From: a bacterium HR15
GTDB taxonomy: Bacteria; Armatimonadota; Fimbriimonadia; Fimbriimonadales; GBS-DC
DNA length: 64,000 bases
NCBI GenBank assembly: GCA_002898555.1
Contig: BEHR01000004.1
Span: forward strand, 1 to 64,000
Direction of reading: 5' to 3'
Under the pieces are notes generated by a model, which made no database searches, was not told where the DNA came from, and saw nothing but the letters and a program-made list of their open reading frames with translations. Position numbers and translations under genes: made by a program. Shown piece by piece: positions 3,400 to 48,720 of the stretch (positions are counted from its first letter, which is position 1; each line of letters opens with the position of its first letter).

Positions 3400-4449
3400 A
3401 TGTGGTGGCATATGAACAGTCAGGAGGAAGCTTTTCCTCTTCTCGAGTGCATGTGTGAATATGATGACAAGTTACCTGCGCCTAAGGGGTTTATTTGGCT
3501 TCTTCACTGTATAAGAAACTCAGAGCGCATCGTCAAGAAAGAACCGCTCTTTTTAGTCCCCCGACTAAGTCTAGATGAGGGACATCGCGCCCTTTCCCCT
3601 AACGGGAGGTACTATTATCACTCCGACTTCATCGCTTCCCCTGATAACCCCCAAGATTACACCTCTACAACGTTATTCTGGGAGCGTGGGCAACCCATGC
3701 CACACAAACTTCCTATCCCATCGCTATTCTATGCAGTTTTTTCCCCCGATAGTCGATTCCTGTGCGGGTTCACTAAGGATGGTGCTTATCGCGGGGGAAG
3801 CGACAGCTTTTATGTAGTAGAGTGTACTACTCGTAAAGTACGCCGATTGTTTCATCTCAGATCGCTCGAAGATTTCACTTACAAATGGGGTTGGTACCCC
3901 GACAGTCGACATATTTGGTACGCATTCGGTGAAGTCTTCGAGGAAAAGAAAGTAACAATCTACAGATGCGATATCTCCTCAGGTACGCAGGTGCTGCTGC
4001 AAGGGAGAGAGCGCGAGGTGGTGTTCAAGGACTGGGACCTTTTAGACCCACTTTATCGCTACAACTCGTTAACGGAAAATGCGCGCGCTTTTGCGTATGC
4101 ACGCAACCATCAAATACGAGTCCGTGTGGAGCCGATACGTGAGTGGGAGGAGGCAAAGCCGGGAGAGTCCGAAGTCTACATCGAGAGGCGCAATGGGCAA
4201 TCACGCCGATTGATACGCAGGGGCGAACACCAGTGGATGCGAATTCAACCGCTCGATGTCTCCGAAGAAGGGCAGTGGATATTACTGAAGTGCGAACGAA
4301 TGTGTAAAGTACAAGAGGCGAACCAAACAACGGAATCCATTCGCTTTGAACTCACCGTATGGCACGTGCCGACGAAGCAGCATCGTGTGTATGCTCGCGC
4401 AGAGTATCCCCCCGTGGGGATGCCGACCTGGTGGTTTGCGCGTGGGTAA
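3400..4449 (+). CDS. Beta-propeller (PD40/TolB-like) paralog B
   Basis: A 349-residue protein with blade motifs ALSPNGRYYYHS, AVFSPDSRFLCG, GWYPDSRHIWYA and VSEEGQWILLK in the same order as in paralogs A and C. The C-terminal half contains SEVYIERRNGQSR and HQWMRIQPLDV, equivalent to the RSEVLLERDDHNW and DIKPIDV of A. GGAGGAGGT at 3381-3389 precedes ATG 3400 and overlaps the stop codon of the upstream frame, so translation may be coupled. No signal peptide or membrane segment is visible. Function unknown. Confidence 0.7.
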   Translation: MWWHMNSQEEAFPLLECMCEYDDKLPAPKGFIWLLHCIRNSERIVKKEPLFLVPRLSLDEGHRALSPNGRYYYHSDFIASPDNPQDYTSTTLFWERGQPMPHKLPIPSLFYAVFSPDSRFLCGFTKDGAYRGGSDSFYVVECTTRKVRRLFHLRSLEDFTYKWGWYPDSRHIWYAFGEVFEEKKVTIYRCDISSGTQVLLQGREREVVFKDWDLLDPLYRYNSLTENARAFAYARNHQIRVRVEPIREWEEAKPGESEVYIERRNGQSRRLIRRGEHQWMRIQPLDVSEEGQWILLKCERMCKVQEANQTTESIRFELTVWHVPTKQHRVYARAEYPPVGMPTWWFARG

Positions 4450-4461
4450 GGCGACGTGGGA

Positions 4462-4562
4462 GAGCGCATCATCAAGCGTGTTCACGCAATAGCCCAAAAG
4501 CTGAACTCGCTGTAGAGTAGTGCTCTCCATTGAGCCGGATTTGCTAAACCGATGATGCGCTC
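4462..4562. repeat. 101-bp element bounded by 12-bp inverted repeats
   Basis: GAGCGCATCATC at 4462-4473 is the exact reverse complement of GATGATGCGCTC at 4551-4562. The right end belongs to the promoter block duplicated near 6561; the left end does not recur there. It could be a MITE-like relic or a long-range hairpin. No transposase is nearby. Confidence 0.5.
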
Positions 4563-4627
4563 TTGGCATAGCAGGAAGAGCGCGAGGGATGGGGTAGAAT
4601 ATCGGAGGTGGTGCAAAAATGATGCGT
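4544..4627 (+). promoter_or_regulatory. Duplicated promoter/RBS block, copy 1 (now driving only MMR-stop)
   Basis: The block from CTAAACCGATGATGCGCTC through GGGGTAGAATATCGGAGG to ATGATGCGT is repeated at 6561-6645, where it drives the 6637 propeller gene. Here ATG ATG CGT is followed immediately by TAG and then by an FN3 fragment. The original gene body has therefore been replaced. TAGAAT at 4595-4600 is the likely -10 element and GGAGG at 4604-4608 the ribosome site. Confidence 0.65.
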
Positions 4628-4628
4628 T

Positions 4629-5197
4629 AGGCGAGCGTTTGGTTAAGAGGCGTGGCTTTGACTTCCGTGTTGTGGATTTTCGCGGTGCCGACAGGAGCGG
4701 ATAAAGTGACGGTCTACTGGGATCTTGTGCCGGGAGCGACGGGTTATCGGGTGCGCTGGGGCACGGCAAGTGGGGTGTATCCGAATGTATCGAGCGTGCT
4801 GCCCGCAGAGGCGCGGAAGCTAAGCATCACGGGTTTAGCTCCTGAGCAAGAGTATTATTTTGTGGTAGAGGCGGCGTATAACGGAGTGTGGGGACCGCCT
4901 TCGGAGGAGGACAGTGCCGTGCCTCACGTAGGAGCGATACCGCATTGGCAGACTGTGGTACCGTGGGATATTACGAACGATGGTCGGTGGGTGCTTTTAG
5001 GTTGCAACAAAGTGTGCCCCGCTGGTGCGAAGCAGTCGGCGTACCGAGAGATTGTGCTGATTGCAGTTCCTACAGGACGCCGATATGTGTACATAGGAGC
5101 TCAGTGCAACGCCGCTGAATCGAGGCTAATACCATCTGGCAAGGGAGAAGATTGGGGTGGATATATAGTGGGCGGCTCTACAAGCAGGGGTAAATAA
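4629..5197 (+). pseudogene. FN3 cassette (copy 2) joined to a propeller C-terminal tail
   Basis: The frame has no usable start; a TAG at 4628-4630 lies just upstream. It encodes KASVWLRG-like residues, the shared FN3 domain (to about SAVPHVGAIPHW) and then about 70 residues similar to the C-terminal blade of paralog B (VVPWDITNDGRWVLLGCNK against IQPLDVSEEGQWILLKCER). It is a chimera of two modules found separately elsewhere in the array, best explained by recombination between cassettes. Confidence 0.65.
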
Positions 5198-5897: not shown

Positions 5898-6419
5898 GTG
5901 AGCGAGAAACACGAAATTATCCAGATATTTCTGGACGAGTATCCTGCTCATCTTGATTTTTTGGTGGCAGAGCAAGTGTGCGACGAACCTTGGATACAGA
6001 CTTCGCCAACTACGGGTATGATACTCTACAAAGTTCGAGGAGTAGATGTTGCCCTTGAGCTGAGCCTTGATGTGCGTGATGCGGTAGTCACCGCATATAT
6101 TTCGTTGTTTTCAGAGGCAGTAAAGCCAGACGTAGGGAGGGTCAGTGGCGGTCGCGTGGTGAGGTTACTTTTATGGGACATTTTGCCCGTCCTTGCCCAG
6201 CAAATACCCGATTTGGCGGAAGATTTCCAGCAGTGGAAAGCTACTTGGAAACAATATTACAACAGAGTGTATCGTTTTCTAAAGGCTCTCAGAGAGCCAG
6301 AGCCAGAGGTAGTGCGGGACTTGTTTCGCGCTGATGCTCAGCATTTGGCTTTGATAATGCGTAGATATGGATCTTCGGTGATTGAATATGGGCAAAGATA
6401 TTGGCACTTGACGGGGTAA
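5898..6419 (+). CDS. Candidate immunity protein for the upstream toxin tip
   Basis: A 173-residue soluble protein starting at GTG 5898 with GGAGG at 5884-5888. It has no signal peptide and is rich in helix-forming acidic segments (DILPVLAQQIPDLAEDF, LKALREPEPEVVRDLF). I recognise no family. The assignment rests on position: it lies 71 bp behind a polymorphic-toxin C-terminal module on the same strand, where immunity genes normally lie, and it is small and acidic. It stays intact although the toxin is interrupted, which fits a retained protective gene. An unrelated cassette protein is the alternative. Confidence 0.45.
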   Translation: MSEKHEIIQIFLDEYPAHLDFLVAEQVCDEPWIQTSPTTGMILYKVRGVDVALELSLDVRDAVVTAYISLFSEAVKPDVGRVSGGRVVRLLLWDILPVLAQQIPDLAEDFQQWKATWKQYYNRVYRFLKALREPEPEVVRDLFRADAQHLALIMRRYGSSVIEYGQRYWHLTG

Positions 6420-6560
6420 GACAGGTATAATCGGGTATCAAGTCCTTGCGCAAGCGAGCAGTTTAGTGTGGCTTAGACGCGCTCACTCGTTTGCTGCTCG
6501 TTCCATCATCCGAGTAGAGCAGCGTTCTCCGTTTAGCCGAGAGGTCATCGACATAGATCT

Positions 6561-6645
6561 CTAAACCGATGATGCGCTCTGGGCATAGCAGGAAGAGCGC
6601 GAGGGATGGGGTAGAATATCGGAGGGGGTGCAAAAAATGATGCGT
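6561..6645 (+). promoter_or_regulatory. Duplicated promoter/RBS block, copy 2 (drives the 6637 gene)
   Basis: Near-identical to 4544-4627. TAGAAT lies at about 6612-6617 and GGAGG at 6621-6625, with tandem ATG codons at 6637 and 6640. It contains the same GATGATGCGCTC motif and the run GCATAGCAGGAAGAGCGCGA. Confidence 0.65.
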
Positions 6646-7860
6646 TTCAGTCAATCATCGGCACCGACAATCGAAGCAATCGCTGTCCCTTCCGTTGTAG
6701 AAATACGCCTGAATGTTGAAAATATTCGCAACAAGGAGGGCTACCCATTCGTACGCTTCCTGTACAAATACAAAAACAATCCGTGGGAAGAGCAAGATGG
6801 ACTCTATATCGCCCAGTTATTTCCCGTGAAAGACATACAAATCTCTCACGATGACAAATATCTTTTGATTGTATCGGATTATCATGTCTATCTGATTGAC
6901 CTCACGAGACCGTTCGCACAGCGTCGGCAACGCATCCTGACCGAAGATCCACACGACTGTGCTTTTTCCCCCAACACACGCATGCTGTGGGCGTACAACT
7001 GTGTCAAACATCACTTAGCCGTGTTCCATCTGGACACAGGCCGGCGTCAAATCATCGCCCGTGACGGAGCCTTCTTCGGCGGTTGGTATCCCGACAGTCG
7101 GCACATTTGGTATCTCCGTACTTCGCCGCCAGGCGAGGCATTTGATCGGGACAGGGGGGCTTCGCGTCGCACTGCGTGGGTGGTGCCCCCCCAAGGGTAT
7201 CGACAGGATCGCTCGTGGCGGCTCTTGGCTCGGTTGCCTGCGCATAGGTGGGCACAAAGGTCTGAGACGCAGACGCCCGAAGGCACGGTGGATGAGTTGT
7301 ATGAATACAATGTGTTGACGGGCAGGCGTCGTGTTCTCTCGTACGAAGAATTAGCGAGCCGCTGGGACTTGCTGAACTCACGCTTCCGCTATGGTTCCTC
7401 TCTGCTTAATAGAGACGGCTCTTGGTACGGCTCCTGTGCCTATTCTCAGGGGGGAACCACACGCTTAGTCGCAACGGAGCTACTTGACCGCAAAATATCA
7501 GGCTCTCCTTGGTCGTTGAAGGTGGAGTGGCGGGATGGGCGGACGCGCTCGGTATGGCAAGCGGGTAGTCACGACTGGCAAGTGGTGGAGCCAGTGGATG
7601 TGTCGGATGATGGAGAGTGGGCGTTGGTGAAGGCGTATAAATTTAAGCCTGTGGAAACGGAGTTTGGATTAGACTGGAGTTATGATTTTCATGCCTATCT
7701 ATTGGTCAACACGCGCACTCGCCAAGAGGAGATACTGATTCGAGATGACCTTGAGGTTTTCGAGAATAAAGGGTGGTATTTTGTGGATGGTCCGTCGGGC
7801 GTTTGGTTTTGGAAGGTAGTTCGGCTCAGGTTTGTATATCCTACGGGTGCAAGGAGATGA
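6637..7860 (+). CDS. Beta-propeller (PD40/TolB-like) paralog C
   Basis: A 407-residue protein, the longest of the four paralogs. Blade motifs: IQISHDDKYLLIVSD, CAFSPNTRMLWAY, GGWYPDSRHIWYL, VSDDGEWALVKAY. Between blades it has an insertion rich in R and W (about residues 170-215) that A and B lack. ATG 6637 (or 6640) follows GGAGG at good spacing and is preferred to an upstream GTG at 6628. No export signal is visible. The FN3 fragment begins right after its stop. Function unknown; the family resemblance is structural only. Confidence 0.7.
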   Translation: MMRFSQSSAPTIEAIAVPSVVEIRLNVENIRNKEGYPFVRFLYKYKNNPWEEQDGLYIAQLFPVKDIQISHDDKYLLIVSDYHVYLIDLTRPFAQRRQRILTEDPHDCAFSPNTRMLWAYNCVKHHLAVFHLDTGRRQIIARDGAFFGGWYPDSRHIWYLRTSPPGEAFDRDRGASRRTAWVVPPQGYRQDRSWRLLARLPAHRWAQRSETQTPEGTVDELYEYNVLTGRRRVLSYEELASRWDLLNSRFRYGSSLLNRDGSWYGSCAYSQGGTTRLVATELLDRKISGSPWSLKVEWRDGRTRSVWQAGSHDWQVVEPVDVSDDGEWALVKAYKFKPVETEFGLDWSYDFHAYLLVNTRTRQEEILIRDDLEVFENKGWYFVDGPSGVWFWKVVRLRFVYPTGARR

Positions 7861-45474: not shown

Positions 45475-45480
45475 TATTAT
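45475..45480 (+). promoter_or_regulatory. TATTAT -10 of the ubiquitin-like conjugation operon
   Basis: AGGGTATTAT, 22 nt before ATG 45503, with AAGGAGGG as ribosome site. It is the only promoter-like element seen ahead of the five same-strand genes. Confidence 0.55.
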
Positions 45481-45502
45481 GAAAGCAAGGAGGGTTCTAA
45501 CG

Positions 45503-45712
45503 ATGAAGAACCAGAGTGCAGTTAAGGAAAAAGTCAAGCTGAACGGCGTCGAGTACGAGATCTCGCTCGCACCTGTTCTGCCTGAGACCACGAACGAGCC
45601 GTCTCGGAACCCAGCCATCATGCCTGCGGCACCGTCCACGCCCCAAGAGATCGTACGCCAAGCTCCTTCGGTGACGCAGCTCCCGCGTTGGGAAGACGGT
45701 GGCCTTCGCTAA
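45503..45712 (+). CDS. Candidate ubiquitin-like/tag protein ending Gly-Gly-Leu-Arg
   Basis: 69 residues from ATG 45503 (AAGGAGGG upstream). Residues 8-23 (KEKVKLNGVEYEISLA) could form a beta hairpin. Residues 25-60 are Pro/Ala/Thr-rich and look disordered. The C-terminus is PRWEDGGLR, with the di-glycine (G66-G67) followed by two residues, as in ubiquitin-like precursors that a JAMM or other peptidase must trim. The first-gene position before an E2, a JAMM-E1 fusion and accessory genes supports a modifier role. Against it: the chain is short and only half looks like a beta-grasp fold. It could instead be a disordered tag or an adaptor. Confidence 0.5.
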   Translation: MKNQSAVKEKVKLNGVEYEISLAPVLPETTNEPSRNPAIMPAAPSTPQEIVRQAPSVTQLPRWEDGGLR

Positions 45713-45744
45713 AGGCATGCCGCTGGGTCTTGAAGGTGGTCGGA

Positions 45745-46191
45745 ATGAACGCGCGTTTGCAACGCATCGCGACGGAGGCAGCCCTTGCTGCCGTTCACTA
45801 TTCACAGACGAAGCAAGCCTCCTTTGATGACGAGGCAGGCTGCTGGGTCATTATCCACGACTTCCCTCTCCCACGCGGATATAACTACTCCTCGACCGAT
45901 GTGTTGATTCTGCTACCGCCCAGCTATCCTCAGACCCCACCCGACTGGTTCTATGTGGATTACAACCTGCGATTGGCGAACGGGCAGCGCCCGCCCCATG
46001 TGTTCTATGGCGACACCTCCTACGATCCCAACCGGCACCAGTTCCAGGAGGAACCGCCCTCGCTGAAAGGCTGGACCGCCTGTTGCCTACATATTCACTC
46101 GTGGAAACCTGCTGCGAACCCGCTGGCAGGACACTCCCTGCTTAGTGTCTGCGAACTGATTCAGAAAGCGTTTGAACGCTGGCGACGCTAA
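45745..46191 (+). CDS. E2-like ubiquitin-conjugating-fold protein (prokaryotic E2 family E type)
   Basis: 148 residues. Features of the prokaryotic E2 family E: GCWVIIHDFPLPRGYNYSST, the strand DVLILLPPSYPQTPPDWFYV with its P-x-x-Y-P-x-x-P-P motif, and NLRLANGQRPP. The C-terminal half is KGWTACCLHIHSWKP with candidate catalytic C113/C114 next to H116 and H118, then NPLAGHSLLSVCELIQKAFE. In this family an E2-like protein receives the modifier from a ThiF-type E1. Start ATG 45745 with AAGGTGGT upstream, 32 nt after the previous stop. Confidence 0.8.
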   Translation: MNARLQRIATEAALAAVHYSQTKQASFDDEAGCWVIIHDFPLPRGYNYSSTDVLILLPPSYPQTPPDWFYVDYNLRLANGQRPPHVFYGDTSYDPNRHQFQEEPPSLKGWTACCLHIHSWKPAANPLAGHSLLSVCELIQKAFERWRR

Positions 46192-46192
46192 C

Positions 46193-46238
46193 GGGAGACA
46201 TCAGGCATTAGGAACGGCTCCCTGATGCCTGATCTCCC
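46193..46238 (+). promoter_or_regulatory. Imperfect hairpin between the E2 and E1 genes
   Basis: GGGAG-AC-ATCAGGCAT (46193-46208) pairs with ATGCCTGAT-CTCCC (46225-46238), with a 2-nt bulge and a 16-nt loop. No T-run follows, so processing or attenuation is more likely than full termination. Confidence 0.6.
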
Positions 46239-46251
46239 TCCCTGAAAGCCC

Positions 46252-47751
46252 ATGATGCAGCCATGGGGTGAAGTGCGAATCACGCGCTCGCTTTGGGCGC
46301 GGCTGGATGAGGTGCTTCTAACCGACCGAACGGTGGAGACGAAGTGCTTCATGCTCTGTCGCGTGCTGGAGCTACCGGGGCGAACGGTGTTCCTGGTGCG
46401 CGAGCTGATCGAAGTGCCGCCCGAGGGGTATGAAGAGCGCTCTGCCAGCCGGGTTATTACCCGGCGTGAATTCGTGCATCAGTTGCTGACACGCTGCGCC
46501 AACGAGGGTCTCTCCCTTTTGGAAGCTCACTCGCACCCCTGGGCGCCCCGACCACGGTTCTCTGCGATTGACCATCGCAGTGACTATCAGAAGTTCCTCG
46601 CTACCGAGAGGCTCTCGCCCCCCTTTCGGCACGGCACGCTTGTGTTCGGCTCCGACATGAGCTTCGACGGGCACATGTGGGACTATCTCCACCAGCAGAT
46701 CGTGCCGATTGAGCGAATTTGCATCGTGGGGATACCGTATGAGGCACGCTACATCGTCGGTGGTGCGCCTCCCGAACTGGACAAGGCGCAGCAGGAGCTG
46801 TACGACCGTCAGGTGCGCGCGCTGGGGGCAGCAGGGCAGGCGATCTTGAGCAACCTGCGCGTGGCGCTGGTGGGCGCAGGCGGGCTTGGCTCCCAGATGG
46901 CGCAAGCGTTGACCCTGTTAGGCGTTGGCGAGATTGTGTTGATTGACCCTGATCGGCTGGAACTTAGCAATCTGAATCGGGTGGTGGGAGCCACCTGGGC
47001 GCGTGCCTGCCGCCGATGGCGCAAGGTCAAAGCGCTGGCGCAGAGCCTTAATCGCACACGCCCACCCGATTCACCCGCGATTATCCCGCTGGCACAAGAT
47101 GCCCGCGTGCCCGACTTGTTGCCGGTGTTGCTGGAATGCGACCTGCTGATTGGCGCGGTGGATAGCGCGACGGTGCGCCAATACCTGAACCTCGTCGCGG
47201 TGTGTGCCCTGAAACCCTATCTGGATGCAGGAGTCGGTATTCGTGCCGAATCGGGGCGCATTGTGCAGGGCGGCGGGCAAGTACAAGTGGTGCTGCCGGG
47301 CGAGACCGCCTGCCTCGCCTGCGTCGGACACCTCGTGCGCCAGAGCGTGGAAGAGCAACTCACACCCGAACAGCGCGCGATGTCCATCCAACATGGCTAC
47401 ATTCAAGGCGAGCGGATACCGAACCCGCAAGTAGTGTTTCTGAACGGTGTTGTGGCGAACCTGCTGGCGTGGGAGTTCGTTAAACTCTGCACAGGTTGCT
47501 TGCCCGTGCAGCCCTATGTGTACTACGACCTGGTGAATCAGCAAGTGTTTCCTGCCCTTGCGGAGCGCCACCCGGACTGCTTTCTGTGCTCGGAGCAGGA
47601 GGGCAGCCTGCTGGCGACCGGTCTGGAGGGCATTTGCGGTTTCCTGACACCTGCACGACGCAGCCCGCCACCTGCTCCACGCCCAAGGAGCCAGCCGGTC
47701 CCACCTGACTCGTTTAACCCGTCGGACATGTCTGACCCGTCTAACTGTTAG
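46252..47751 (+). CDS. JAMM (JAB) peptidase fused to a ThiF-type E1 adenylyltransferase
   Basis: 499 residues. N-terminal JAB domain (1-170): candidate Glu at 29 and the JAMM zinc motif AHSHPWAPRPRFSAID (H93, H95, S104, D107). C-terminal E1 domain (185-450): nucleotide loop RVALVGAGGLGSQMAQAL (G208-G213), VLIDPDRLELSNLNR, DLLIGAVDSATVRQYL, zinc ligands C354/C357 and C443/C446 (CLAC, CFLC). A Pro/Ser-rich tail of about 30 residues follows. In related operons the peptidase trims or removes the modifier and the E1 adenylates its C-terminal Gly with ATP. It lies between the E2 and zinc-module genes. Confidence 0.88.
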   Translation: MMQPWGEVRITRSLWARLDEVLLTDRTVETKCFMLCRVLELPGRTVFLVRELIEVPPEGYEERSASRVITRREFVHQLLTRCANEGLSLLEAHSHPWAPRPRFSAIDHRSDYQKFLATERLSPPFRHGTLVFGSDMSFDGHMWDYLHQQIVPIERICIVGIPYEARYIVGGAPPELDKAQQELYDRQVRALGAAGQAILSNLRVALVGAGGLGSQMAQALTLLGVGEIVLIDPDRLELSNLNRVVGATWARACRRWRKVKALAQSLNRTRPPDSPAIIPLAQDARVPDLLPVLLECDLLIGAVDSATVRQYLNLVAVCALKPYLDAGVGIRAESGRIVQGGGQVQVVLPGETACLACVGHLVRQSVEEQLTPEQRAMSIQHGYIQGERIPNPQVVFLNGVVANLLAWEFVKLCTGCLPVQPYVYYDLVNQQVFPALAERHPDCFLCSEQEGSLLATGLEGICGFLTPARRSPPPAPRPRSQPVPPDSFNPSDMSDPSNC

Positions 47752-47759
47752 AAACTACA

Positions 47760-48239
47760 ATGAAACCTATTCCGCCGAATCGTCGCTGGGAAGAACACAA
47801 GGTACAGCACCCGGAAGCGAGGCTTCCTGCACCATCGGACGAAATCTGCGTGATGGGGGCGCTCGCGGAGCCACCTATTATTCTCGCACGTTACGCGGGC
47901 ACATGCCCGGCTTGCCGTCATGTCATCCTGCCCGGCATGCCCATTACGCGCCATGCCCACGCCCATCGCTGGGTGCATGCCGAGTGTCGCAACGCCCCCC
48001 TCGCCCCCAGTTTCCCCGCGCGCTACCACGGTGTCTGCCGTGCCTGCCAACAGCCGATCCATGTGGGTGAGTTCATCGCTCGCGATGCCGATTACGGCTG
48101 GGTACATCACCAGTGCCTGCGCAACCATCACCTCTCTATCGATAGAGAGGCAGTGCTGGCGGAAATCGACGCTATTATCCGCGAGCTGATGAACATGCTT
48201 GAGGAGGTTGAGGGGGGGAGTGAGTTCAATGGCAGGTAG
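47760..48239 (+). CDS. Protein with two tandem CCHC zinc modules and N-terminal PIPPNRRW motif
   Basis: 159 residues. The N-terminus MKPIPPNRRW is shared with the next protein. Two similar modules: YAGTCPACRHVILPGMPI ... WVHAEC (C49, C52, H73, C76) and YHGVCRACQQPIHVGEFI ... WVHHQC (C93, C96, H116, C119). The layout Y-x-G-x-C-x2-C-x3-I-x2-G-x-x-I ... W-V-H-x2-C is a treble-clef-like zinc finger. A C-terminal acidic helix (AVLAEIDAIIRELMNMLEEV) follows. It starts 8 nt after the E1 stop. It could be a substrate adaptor or E3-like factor of the conjugation system; that is inference, and it is not a recognisable RING. Confidence 0.65.
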   Translation: MKPIPPNRRWEEHKVQHPEARLPAPSDEICVMGALAEPPIILARYAGTCPACRHVILPGMPITRHAHAHRWVHAECRNAPLAPSFPARYHGVCRACQQPIHVGEFIARDADYGWVHHQCLRNHHLSIDREAVLAEIDAIIRELMNMLEEVEGGSEFNGR

Positions 48240-48720
48240 ACCCATCCCCCCAAACCGCCGCTGGAGGCAGAATCGGTTGCCTCGAACCCCACCGCCTGAG
48301 CCGAGCACGCGAGAAGTCCCACCAGATGATCTGCTCTGGAACTACATCCTCATTTCATCGCATCGCCGCCCTGCACGCCGAAGATCATGGGCACAAAGTA
48401 TCCTCTGGGGCATCCTCCAGATCGCGCTCATCTTCGCGCTCTCTTGGAGCATCGGCGAATTGCTGGGGTTTCTATCGCCCCATAAAGATTCGCCTCCTAT
48501 CCTCACGATACATCCATCCGCACCGAGCACGGATGACCCTGCTCTCCATGAAGATTCGCCCCAGGCAACGGACGACCCCACTCTTCATGAAGATTCGCCC
48601 CAGGCAACGGATGACCCTGCTCTCCACGAAGATTCGCCCCAGGCAACGGATGACCCCGCTCTCCATGAAGATTCGCCCCAGGTAACGGAAGCGCCATCAA
48701 ACACGGAGACAACGCCATAG
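48229..48720 (+). CDS. Single-pass membrane protein with PIPPNRRW motif and four 13-residue repeats
   Basis: 163 residues from ATG 48229 (GGGGGAG upstream), overlapping the previous gene by 11 nt. Order: MAGRPIPPNRRW, a basic Pro-rich segment, one transmembrane helix at about 56-82 (SILWGILQIALIFALSWSIG), then an acidic tail with four repeats (DDPALHEDSPQAT and variants) at about 102-153. The positive N-terminal side suggests N-in, so the repeats would face outward. No lysine-rich acceptor region is evident. Possible roles: membrane anchor for the conjugation machinery, or its substrate. Confidence 0.65.
   Translation: MAGRPIPPNRRWRQNRLPRTPPPEPSTREVPPDDLLWNYILISSHRRPARRRSWAQSILWGILQIALIFALSWSIGELLGFLSPHKDSPPILTIHPSAPSTDDPALHEDSPQATDDPTLHEDSPQATDDPALHEDSPQATDDPALHEDSPQVTEAPSNTETTP
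48532..48687. repeat. Four tandem 39-bp units
   Basis: GAYGACCCYRCTCTYCAYGA followed by AGATTCGCCCCAGGYAACG, four times in frame. Third-position differences between units show that the repeats are not freshly amplified. Confidence 0.9.

Follow-up and report, generated by a model that had tools for sequence, protein, structure and literature searches.

A predicted ubiquitin-type conjugation operon with a short candidate modifier, shared across a family of Armatimonadota

Introduction

Can a full E1-E2 cascade work with a modifier that is not a beta-grasp protein? This question is raised by a five-gene operon at positions 45503-48720 of the + strand of the window, by which we mean the whole 64,000-nucleotide (nt) stretch analyzed here (contig BEHR01000004.1, positions 1 to 64,000, of bacterium HR15, a member of the Fimbriimonadales in the phylum Armatimonadota; assembly GCA_002898555.1, 72 contigs and 3.04 Mb, genome G000 below). 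The five open reading frames (ORFs) encode, in order, a short candidate modifier, an E2-like protein, a fusion of a JAB/JAMM peptidase domain to a ThiF-type E1, a protein with two zinc modules and a one-helix membrane protein. All lie on the same strand; 32, 60 and 8 nt separate the first four in turn, and the last two overlap by 11 nt, exactly as a first-pass annotation made from the letters alone had laid them out. To our knowledge, the ubiquitin-like modifiers known to be passed along E1-E2 cascades are beta-grasp proteins.

The first-pass annotation regarded this layout as unlike anything described. However, a ubiquitin-like protein (Ubl), an E2, a JAB-E1 and a gene with a zinc signature make up type 6e of Iyer et al. 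2006, for which that paper lists a JAB-E1, a multi-beta-grasp Ubl, a Cys-less E2-like domain that was then considered inactive, and a C-x3-C-x(35-38)-H-x2-C protein (PMC1779556). We equate type 6e with what is now represented by Bub. A later report mentions 544 identified Bub operons and leaves phage protection by them undemonstrated (PMC13373217), and another places Bub among bacterial Ubl cascades that apparently act mainly in phage defence (PMC12687455).

Here, we ask what the operon of the window encodes and how far it departs from Bub. Our results are all computed, from sequence searches, profiles, alignments, trees and structure models, and what they give directly is gene content, co-occurrence, conservation, the homology of E1 and E2 to the Bub enzymes, and residue identities.

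Results

The second and third genes identify the operon as one for ubiquitin-like conjugation. The 148-aa E2 (45745..46191, + strand) matches Prok-E2_E (PF14462) at E 2.6e-15, over residues 28-86 only, with the active-site part outside the match, and the best Protein Data Bank (PDB) match of the family E2 profile is Citrobacter BubB (E 2.8e-6). The 499-aa E1 (46252..47751, + strand) contains a ThiF domain (Pfam E 2.8e-38), and the best PDB match of its family profile is Citrobacter BubCD (9ea4; E 5.6e-31), which aligns over both halves (profile positions 7-408). Although Prok-JAB scores below the cut-off (E 0.03), residues E51, H93, H95, P96, S104 and D107 are invariant in all 10 aligned E1s, and residues 93-107 (46528..46572, + strand) read H-x-H-P-x7-S-x-x-D, which we take to be the JAMM motif. 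The first-pass identification of a conjugation operon with a peptidase-E1 fusion thus stands. Elsewhere in the source genome, the only Prok-JAB match at E <= 0.001 is at G000:C29:29151-29507 (E 6e-29); the JAB domain of the operon scores under that limit.

The adenylation-site residues, too, are invariant in the 10 aligned E1s, which share a glycine loop, Asp232, Asn240, Arg243, Lys258, Asp304 and two CxxC pairs (alignment A1; the fragments from G009, G013 and G015 and the E1s of G014 and G017 lie outside it and the tree below). Between the CxxC pairs, the sole conserved Cys is Cys416, past the following hydrophobic segment, and the loop that holds a Cys in ThiF-type E1s has no conserved one here. 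Because of this, the modifier is probably handed directly to E2. Of the 14 family E1s read to their end, 12 have [KR]PIPxPR near the C-terminus, the exceptions being the E1 of the window and that of G001 (RIPPPR).

Is the operon maintained in related bacteria? Among the 291 genomes searched with E1, 23 matched at E <= 1e-40. E1 is present in 15 of the 18 genomes of the family and in the nearest outgroup, G159, with a best match per genome of E <= 1.7e-159, and the next match in Armatimonadota is at 1.1e-74. The E2 and modifier genes occur in 14 of the 18 genomes and are missing from one E1-bearing genome, G014, which is 65% complete. The zinc gene likewise occurs in 14 (14 of the 15 with E1 and none of the three without); it is absent from E1-bearing G013, whose contig ends inside E1. 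The three genomes without E1 (G002, G005 and G010) have none of the four core genes. This pattern sustains the first-pass proposal that the zinc gene is part of the system. Prok-E2_E is found in 14/18 genomes inside the family versus 9/273 genomes of the phylum outside it, where its occurrence is sporadic.

The four genes also evolve as coding sequences. Median ratios of nonsynonymous to synonymous substitution (dN/dS), taken over pairs with dS < 2, were 0.10 for the modifier (60/66 pairs), 0.14 for E2 (54/66), 0.19 for E1 (77/78) and 0.33 for the zinc gene (34/66), the modifier being the lowest of the four genes tested. With medians this low, we take the first four frames to be real rather than chance.

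Gene order is largely retained. The E2 gene adjoins E1 in 12/15 genomes, with modifier and E2 on another contig in G001 and G006, and the zinc gene is directly 3′ of E1 in 13 of the 14 loci that reach that far. In G001, the gene after E2 instead encodes a protein of 117 aa that contains PIPPNKRW and a single zinc module. Four genomes, G009, G003, G011 and G008, have second modifier-E2 cassettes (L092, L093, L094 and L095) with no E1 in the stretch read, and those of G009 and G011 also have a second zinc gene. The second cassettes are possibly parallel branches that use one E1.

In an E1 tree (IQ-TREE, 32 rows), the family and G159 form a clade with support of 100/100 that is separate from the Bub rows, the NYN-associated type and the haloarchaeal type. 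The Bub rows grouped with G033 and G069 only at 82/73, and the Microcystis E1 is on a long branch of unsure placement. When A1 was searched against a contig collection, it found 16 loci in 14 assemblies, all metagenome-assembled genomes titled Armatimonadota, Armatimonadetes or Fimbriimonadales; these are the same assemblies as the genomes above and so do not constitute independent support. The single E1 sequence found no relative in that collection. Mobile elements were examined as well. A tblastn search of 50,697 phage records with E1 gave no match, which disfavours a phage-borne origin, though PHROGs holds two E1-like families of function not known (best E 7.9e-16). Among plasmid records, 124 match E1, all below 60% identity and the listed ones at most 32%, and 38 match E2. 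Inspection of 12 plasmid regions as candidate close relatives revealed no short modifier of this kind.

The first gene (45503..45712, + strand) encodes the 69-aa candidate modifier, with an N-terminal beta-hairpin (KVKLNGVEYEISL), a Pro-rich middle and a C-terminal LPRWEDG followed by the tail GLR (alignment A4); if translation began instead at the in-frame ATG at 45479, the protein would be 77 aa long. The family has 18 copies of it in 14 of the 18 genomes, window included, each on the same strand and directly 5′ of an E2 gene. All consist of a hairpin, [KT]V-x-[LIV]-N-x-x-E-[FY]-E-I, a variable Pro-rich middle, LP-x-W-[EQ]-D-G and a tail of 2-4 residues. W[EQ]DG is present in 18/18, and the tail begins with Ala in 12, Gly in five and Thr in one. 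The first-pass annotation had noted the GGLR end of this protein and had Gly-Gly conjugates in view. However, only 5/18 copies, the window's among them, have Gly-Gly, which rules it out as the hallmark of the modifier, and the searches described below likewise give no support for an ordinary Gly-Gly Ubl.

Using LP-x-W-E-D-G (codons 45680..45699 in the window, + strand) as a pattern, we obtained 28 matches in the 291 genomes: 17 in 14 family genomes, one in G159 and 10 others that look like chance. None of the 10 is modifier-like (nine were read and one does not encode the motif). The reversed pattern matched 21/291 genomes, so isolated matches carry no meaning. In G159, the protein upstream of E2 is 54 aa long and terminates exactly at ...LPVWEDG. 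It is presumed to be a homologue, mostly on account of its position, together with the end motif and a weak alignment of the hairpin.

We could find no relationship between the candidate modifier and known Ubls. None of 12 modifier rows matched a ubiquitin-like Pfam family at E <= 1 or the Pup family, and their ends, WEDG plus a tail, are not of Pup type. A search of the PDB with the modifier profile gave two unconvincing matches (E 0.4 and 1.2), and hhalign against the single beta-grasp Ubl tried gave a probability of 0.6, no link. The AlphaFold2 (AF2) model, from 12 similar rows, contains only a hairpin (residues 7-22) and a helix (residues 47-53) and no beta-grasp; it is of low confidence overall (mean predicted local distance difference test [pLDDT] 67, predicted template modelling score [pTM] 0.26), with a mean pLDDT of 87 over hairpin residues 11-20. 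Foldseek found nothing for the model below E 2.8. From the absence of the fold in this low-confidence model, the 54-aa length of the G159 counterpart and the failure of searches to find similarity, we suggest that the modifier probably falls short of a full beta-grasp.

If the short protein is not a normal Ubl, is it a tag at all? It could be an accessory peptide or a substrate, while E1 and E2 act on an ordinary beta-grasp protein encoded elsewhere, such as a MoaD/ThiS-like protein. The missing Pfam match in 12/12 rows, the model without the fold and the negative hhalign comparison all speak for this. However, the short gene holds the modifier position in all 18 copies and in G159, its design of terminal Gly plus tail is common to the Bub Ubls, and the three genomes without E1 also lack the short protein. 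Moreover, no other Ubl gene was present among the operon genes read, MoaD/ThiS-like genes elsewhere not having been searched for. We therefore regard this explanation as unlikely.

How does the system relate to Bub? The order of Ubl, E2 and JAB-E1 plus a zinc-signature gene is that of Bub and type 6e, the JAB-E1 fusion is of BubCD type and the E2 of BubB type. In addition, the three Bub-type Ubls that we aligned consist of a conserved Gly and a variable tail (ATFG plus tail). In contrast to Bub, which has a multiubiquitin gene at this place, the window has the short modifier without a detectable beta-grasp, and a Pfam scan of the operon proteins and the 12 modifier rows gave no multiubiquitin match.

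The E2 active site is a second difference. Cys114 (codon 46084..46086, + strand), the predicted catalytic residue, lies in GWTACCLHI..WKPAANP and is invariant in 12/12 aligned family E2s (alignment A2). Both MAFFT and hhalign against the protein of plasmid pKAZ5 place it over the Ser of WSRH-type E2s, to which BubB itself belongs. In Bub, the E2 Ser carries the conjugation intermediate. Alignment A2 omits the second E2 copies and the E2s of G001 and G006; of these, the four read (G006, G009:C40, G011:C1 and G008:C54) have the CCLH site, and the Cys-site check extends to all but the E2 of G001 and the second E2 of G003.

Across 31 E2s aligned with MAFFT, the Cys114 column holds Cys in 16 (the 12 of the family and those of G275, Natrinema, Natribaculum and Microcystis), Ser in 11 and a gap in four. 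The four gapped E2s are of FSWH type, and closing their gap at the conserved His brings their Ser into the column. This set leaves out the E2s of G107 and G161, the latter with an altered C-terminus and no E1 nearby. The G161 gene (L144, about 6347-6965) is preceded by a small ORF, has no E1 anywhere in the stretch read, and is possibly a decayed copy. The E2 Cys is not unique to the family, yet it separates the family from Bub.

The other operons with a Cys-type Prok-E2_E (Microcystis plasmid, G275, Natrinema and Natribaculum) share with the family the Cys in the same column and a small gene before E2, and the Microcystis E2 has a common W-x-P-x-x-N-P-x-x-G-H element. Unlike the modifier of the window, their small gene is beta-grasp-like by eye; their E1s branch elsewhere, and none of the genes read beside them is a PIPxNRRW zinc gene. 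Microcystis plasmid p1 (L151) and G275 (L145) combine an NYN gene, a small beta-grasp-like gene, the Cys-type Prok-E2_E and a JAB-E1, and p1 also has a coiled-coil-like gene with one hydrophobic segment. On the Natrinema plasmid (L149), whose E2 is of Cys type, a predicted multi-helix membrane protein (4368-4796) directly follows the JAB-E1.

The fourth gene (47760..48239, + strand) encodes the 159-aa zinc protein, with an MKPIPPNRRW start, two modules predicted to be single-zinc and treble-clef-like, and a long C-terminal helix (alignments A3/A5). Each module has the form C-x2-C...H-x2-C, unlike the C-x3-C-x(35-38)-H-x2-C of the type 6e gene. The ligands are invariant in 12/12 rows except for the second His, which is nearly invariant, and the KPIPxNRR start is invariant in the alignment. 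The model has a mean pLDDT of 86, with block means of 87-97 over residues 41-120. The best structural match of the modules is ZNRF1 (Z 4.9), and many RING E3s are in the top rows, all at Z < 5; Foldseek matches are at E >= 0.06. As the RING matches are weak, we claim only a treble-clef-like fold. Pfam matches among the 12 rows are also weak (DUF2175 in 8/12, best E 1e-4; zf-Vps39_C in 3/12, 5.3e-5; Prok-RING_1 in 3/12, 0.026), and a PDB sequence search with the zinc profile gave no match. The zinc protein does match a phage family of function not known, phrog_1581 (E 1.1e-17). The plasmid relatives differ in having a DUF6527 gene alongside; we found no DUF6527 match among the five operon proteins and six window flank proteins scanned.

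We also considered whether the operon is an ordinary Bub-like (type 6e) system whose modifier is a divergent but normal beta-grasp, missed by a shallow alignment, and whose role is in phage or stress defence. The homology to BubCD and BubB and the gene order are those of such a system, and there are links to defence: PADLOC E1-E2 models match the ThiF part of E1 (best E 2.9e-18), the NCBIfam anti-phage model cap2_3 matches E1 below its cut-off, and the two PHROGs families match as well. However, a 54-aa counterpart in G159 is too short for a full beta-grasp with flexible ends, multiubiquitin and DUF6527 are undetected as described, and the E1s form a clade separate from the Bub rows. Moreover, the flanks that were tested (10 proteins, six from the window and four from relatives) are housekeeping, the only one with PADLOC matches (E >= 3.1e-6) being a MacB/FtsX permease, and E1 is kept in 15/18 genomes of the family. 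Thus, the tie to phage defence in the first-pass annotation survives as a similarity of the ThiF part, while the housekeeping flanks and the retention of the system across the family, rather than sporadically, tell against it. We consider an ordinary Bub-like system improbable. Instead, the window system appears to be a diverged cousin of Bub and not a member: the layout is the same, and the modifier, the E2 residue, the zinc protein and the inheritance, family-wide and not sporadic, are different.

Least probable of all, and very much so, is a sulfur-carrier or biosynthetic system in which E1 forms a thiocarboxylate on a short carrier, with the E2-like domain serving as a scaffold. The ThiF/MoeB similarity of E1 in the family-model scan, its lack of a conserved loop Cys and the one-time view of type 6e E2-like domains as inactive (PMC1779556) fit such a system, but Cys114 and its surroundings are invariant in 12/12 E2s, no sulfurtransferase was found among the six window flank proteins scanned (one of them, a SOR/SNZ protein for which ThiG is a secondary match, is biosynthetic but 3.5 kb away), and modifier-E2 cassettes without an adjoining E1 argue for specificity at the level of E2.

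The fifth gene (48229..48720, + strand) encodes a 163-aa one-helix membrane protein with an N-terminal GRPIPPNRRW and acidic 13-residue repeats. Its single hydrophobic segment starts at about residue 58; the net charge is +8 on the N-terminal side of this segment and -19 on the C-terminal side. At 48529-48689, the gene contains 4.1 tandem copies of a 39-nt repeat. The first-pass annotation had expected both accessory genes to co-occur with the core genes; a neighborhood survey of the 18 family genomes bears this out for the zinc gene but not for the membrane gene. We found no convincing homologue of the latter in the other 17 genomes: besides itself, the protein has 10 matches, all at E >= 0.013, two of which are the motif of zinc genes. 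As its only strong match is itself, we ruled it out as a part of the system across the family.

Nonetheless, the membrane and zinc proteins share PIPPNRRW (codons 48241..48264 and 47766..47789, respectively, + strand), the only two such sites in the source assembly. All eight residues are equal, while six of the eight codons differ, all synonymously. The pattern PIPxNRRW gave 19 matches in the 291 genomes, 15 of them sites in 12 family genomes, all at zinc or membrane genes. Of the four outside, three were read and in the other the motif is not encoded; with the pattern reversed as a control, 2/291 genomes matched. A common docking site for IPxNR-type motifs could explain this sharing. In G159, a 50-aa ORF overlaps the end of E1 (L143, reverse strand, 7147-7299), with AGGAG upstream and IPNNRIGGW early in its sequence; the C-terminal half is hydrophobic. 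It is possibly a small membrane partner, a faint lead, as its codon-position G+C is weaker than that of its neighbors and it is short enough to be chance.

The family also carries Pup-proteasome genes. Pup_ligase is found in 17/18 genomes and PF00227 matches, HslV-like ones included, in 16/18. In the source genome, one locus (L223, G000:C1, about 133.7-138.6 kb) brings together two Pup_ligase genes, a 62-aa Pup candidate ending in SGE and a pair of PF00227 (proteasome-family) genes. From these gene contents, the family appears to have two small-protein tagging systems, Pup-proteasome and the E1/E2 operon. We dropped a functional pairing of the operon with the proteasome, since G002, G005 and G010, which lack E1, retain the proteasome. 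The three Pup candidates read (L223, L226 and L227) have [RK]PIPQ close to their N-terminus, similar to the [KR]PIP with which the zinc and membrane proteins start and to the E1 tails; this likeness is possibly chance, and two of those genomes (G002 and G005) are without the E1 system.

Discussion

We favor, with moderate confidence, a model in which the operon encodes a pathway for ubiquitin-type conjugation that has diverged from its cousin Bub and whose reduced modifier has lost most of the beta-grasp fold. This modifier would be made as a precursor from which the E1-fused JAMM domain removes the 2-4 residue tail, exposing the Gly of LP-x-W-E-D-G. The ThiF domain would adenylate this Gly, and E1 would probably pass the modifier straight to Cys114 of E2. 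E2 would then attach the modifier to targets, and the zinc protein, held through its PIPxNRRW start, would act as an adaptor or in an E3-like role. In the lineage of the window, the membrane protein with the same motif may, speculatively, bring the complex to the membrane.

Several observations weigh against this model. The system is dispensable, as three genomes of the family are without it and two of these are at least 94% complete. In G159, the E2 has Ser at the position of Cys114 and Cys one residue earlier, so the thioester step would not be fixed across the clade; the hhalign match of its 54-aa protein to the family modifier is weak and covers the hairpin only (probability 20, E 0.001); and no zinc module was found within the 14.3-kb stretch. 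The modifier model derives from a shallow 12-row alignment, with no real Ubl folded alike as a control, and the missing hhalign link to a beta-grasp Ubl counts on the same side. For 10/12 modifiers, the top Pfam match is an unrelated beta-barrel model (best E 0.0045). Finally, the RING E3 likeness of the zinc modules is weak (Z 4.9; Foldseek E 0.06). RING E3s have eight ligands in a two-zinc cross-brace within one domain, whereas each module here has four conserved ligands (C, C, H and C), enough for one zinc.

Small disordered tags and short peptides have precedents in other pathways. Pup is about 60 residues long, ends in GGE/GGQ-type sequences and uses PafA/Dop. The candidate modifier resembles Pup and UBact in its length of about 60 residues, its probably largely disordered nature and its presumed conjugation at the C-terminal end, and differs from Pup in having E1 and E2 as its predicted enzymes. 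ThiF-type enzymes that take short peptides also exist, such as MccB; MccB and PaaA, both among the PDB matches of our E1 profile, set a precedent for a ThiF fold that accepts a short peptide, although their products are peptides and neither is known to work with an E2 or a JAMM peptidase. Among literature titles and the starts of abstracts, we found neither a ubiquitin-type modifier without a beta-grasp nor such a system in Armatimonadota; the portion of PMC11354881 considered here names Armatimonadota only for MOCS3 scores.

A more far-reaching version of our model, which we offer tentatively, is that a full E1-E2-JAMM cascade conjugates a Pup-like tag without a beta-grasp through a thioester E2, beside a true Pup-proteasome system, with two modifier-E2 pairs per E1 in several genomes and with IPxNR zinc and membrane proteins as interchangeable specificity or anchoring factors.

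If our model is true, a modifier of 54-70 residues with no more than a hairpin, a linker and a terminal Gly would mean that enzymes rather than fold define the pathway. It would break a basic rule for the construction of such tags and would provide a minimal tag for engineering. The natural comparison of Ser and Cys E2s (Ser in G159, Cys in the family and Ser in Bub) would make the interconversion of oxyester and thioester testable. Moreover, two protein-tagging systems would be available for study in one bacterium.

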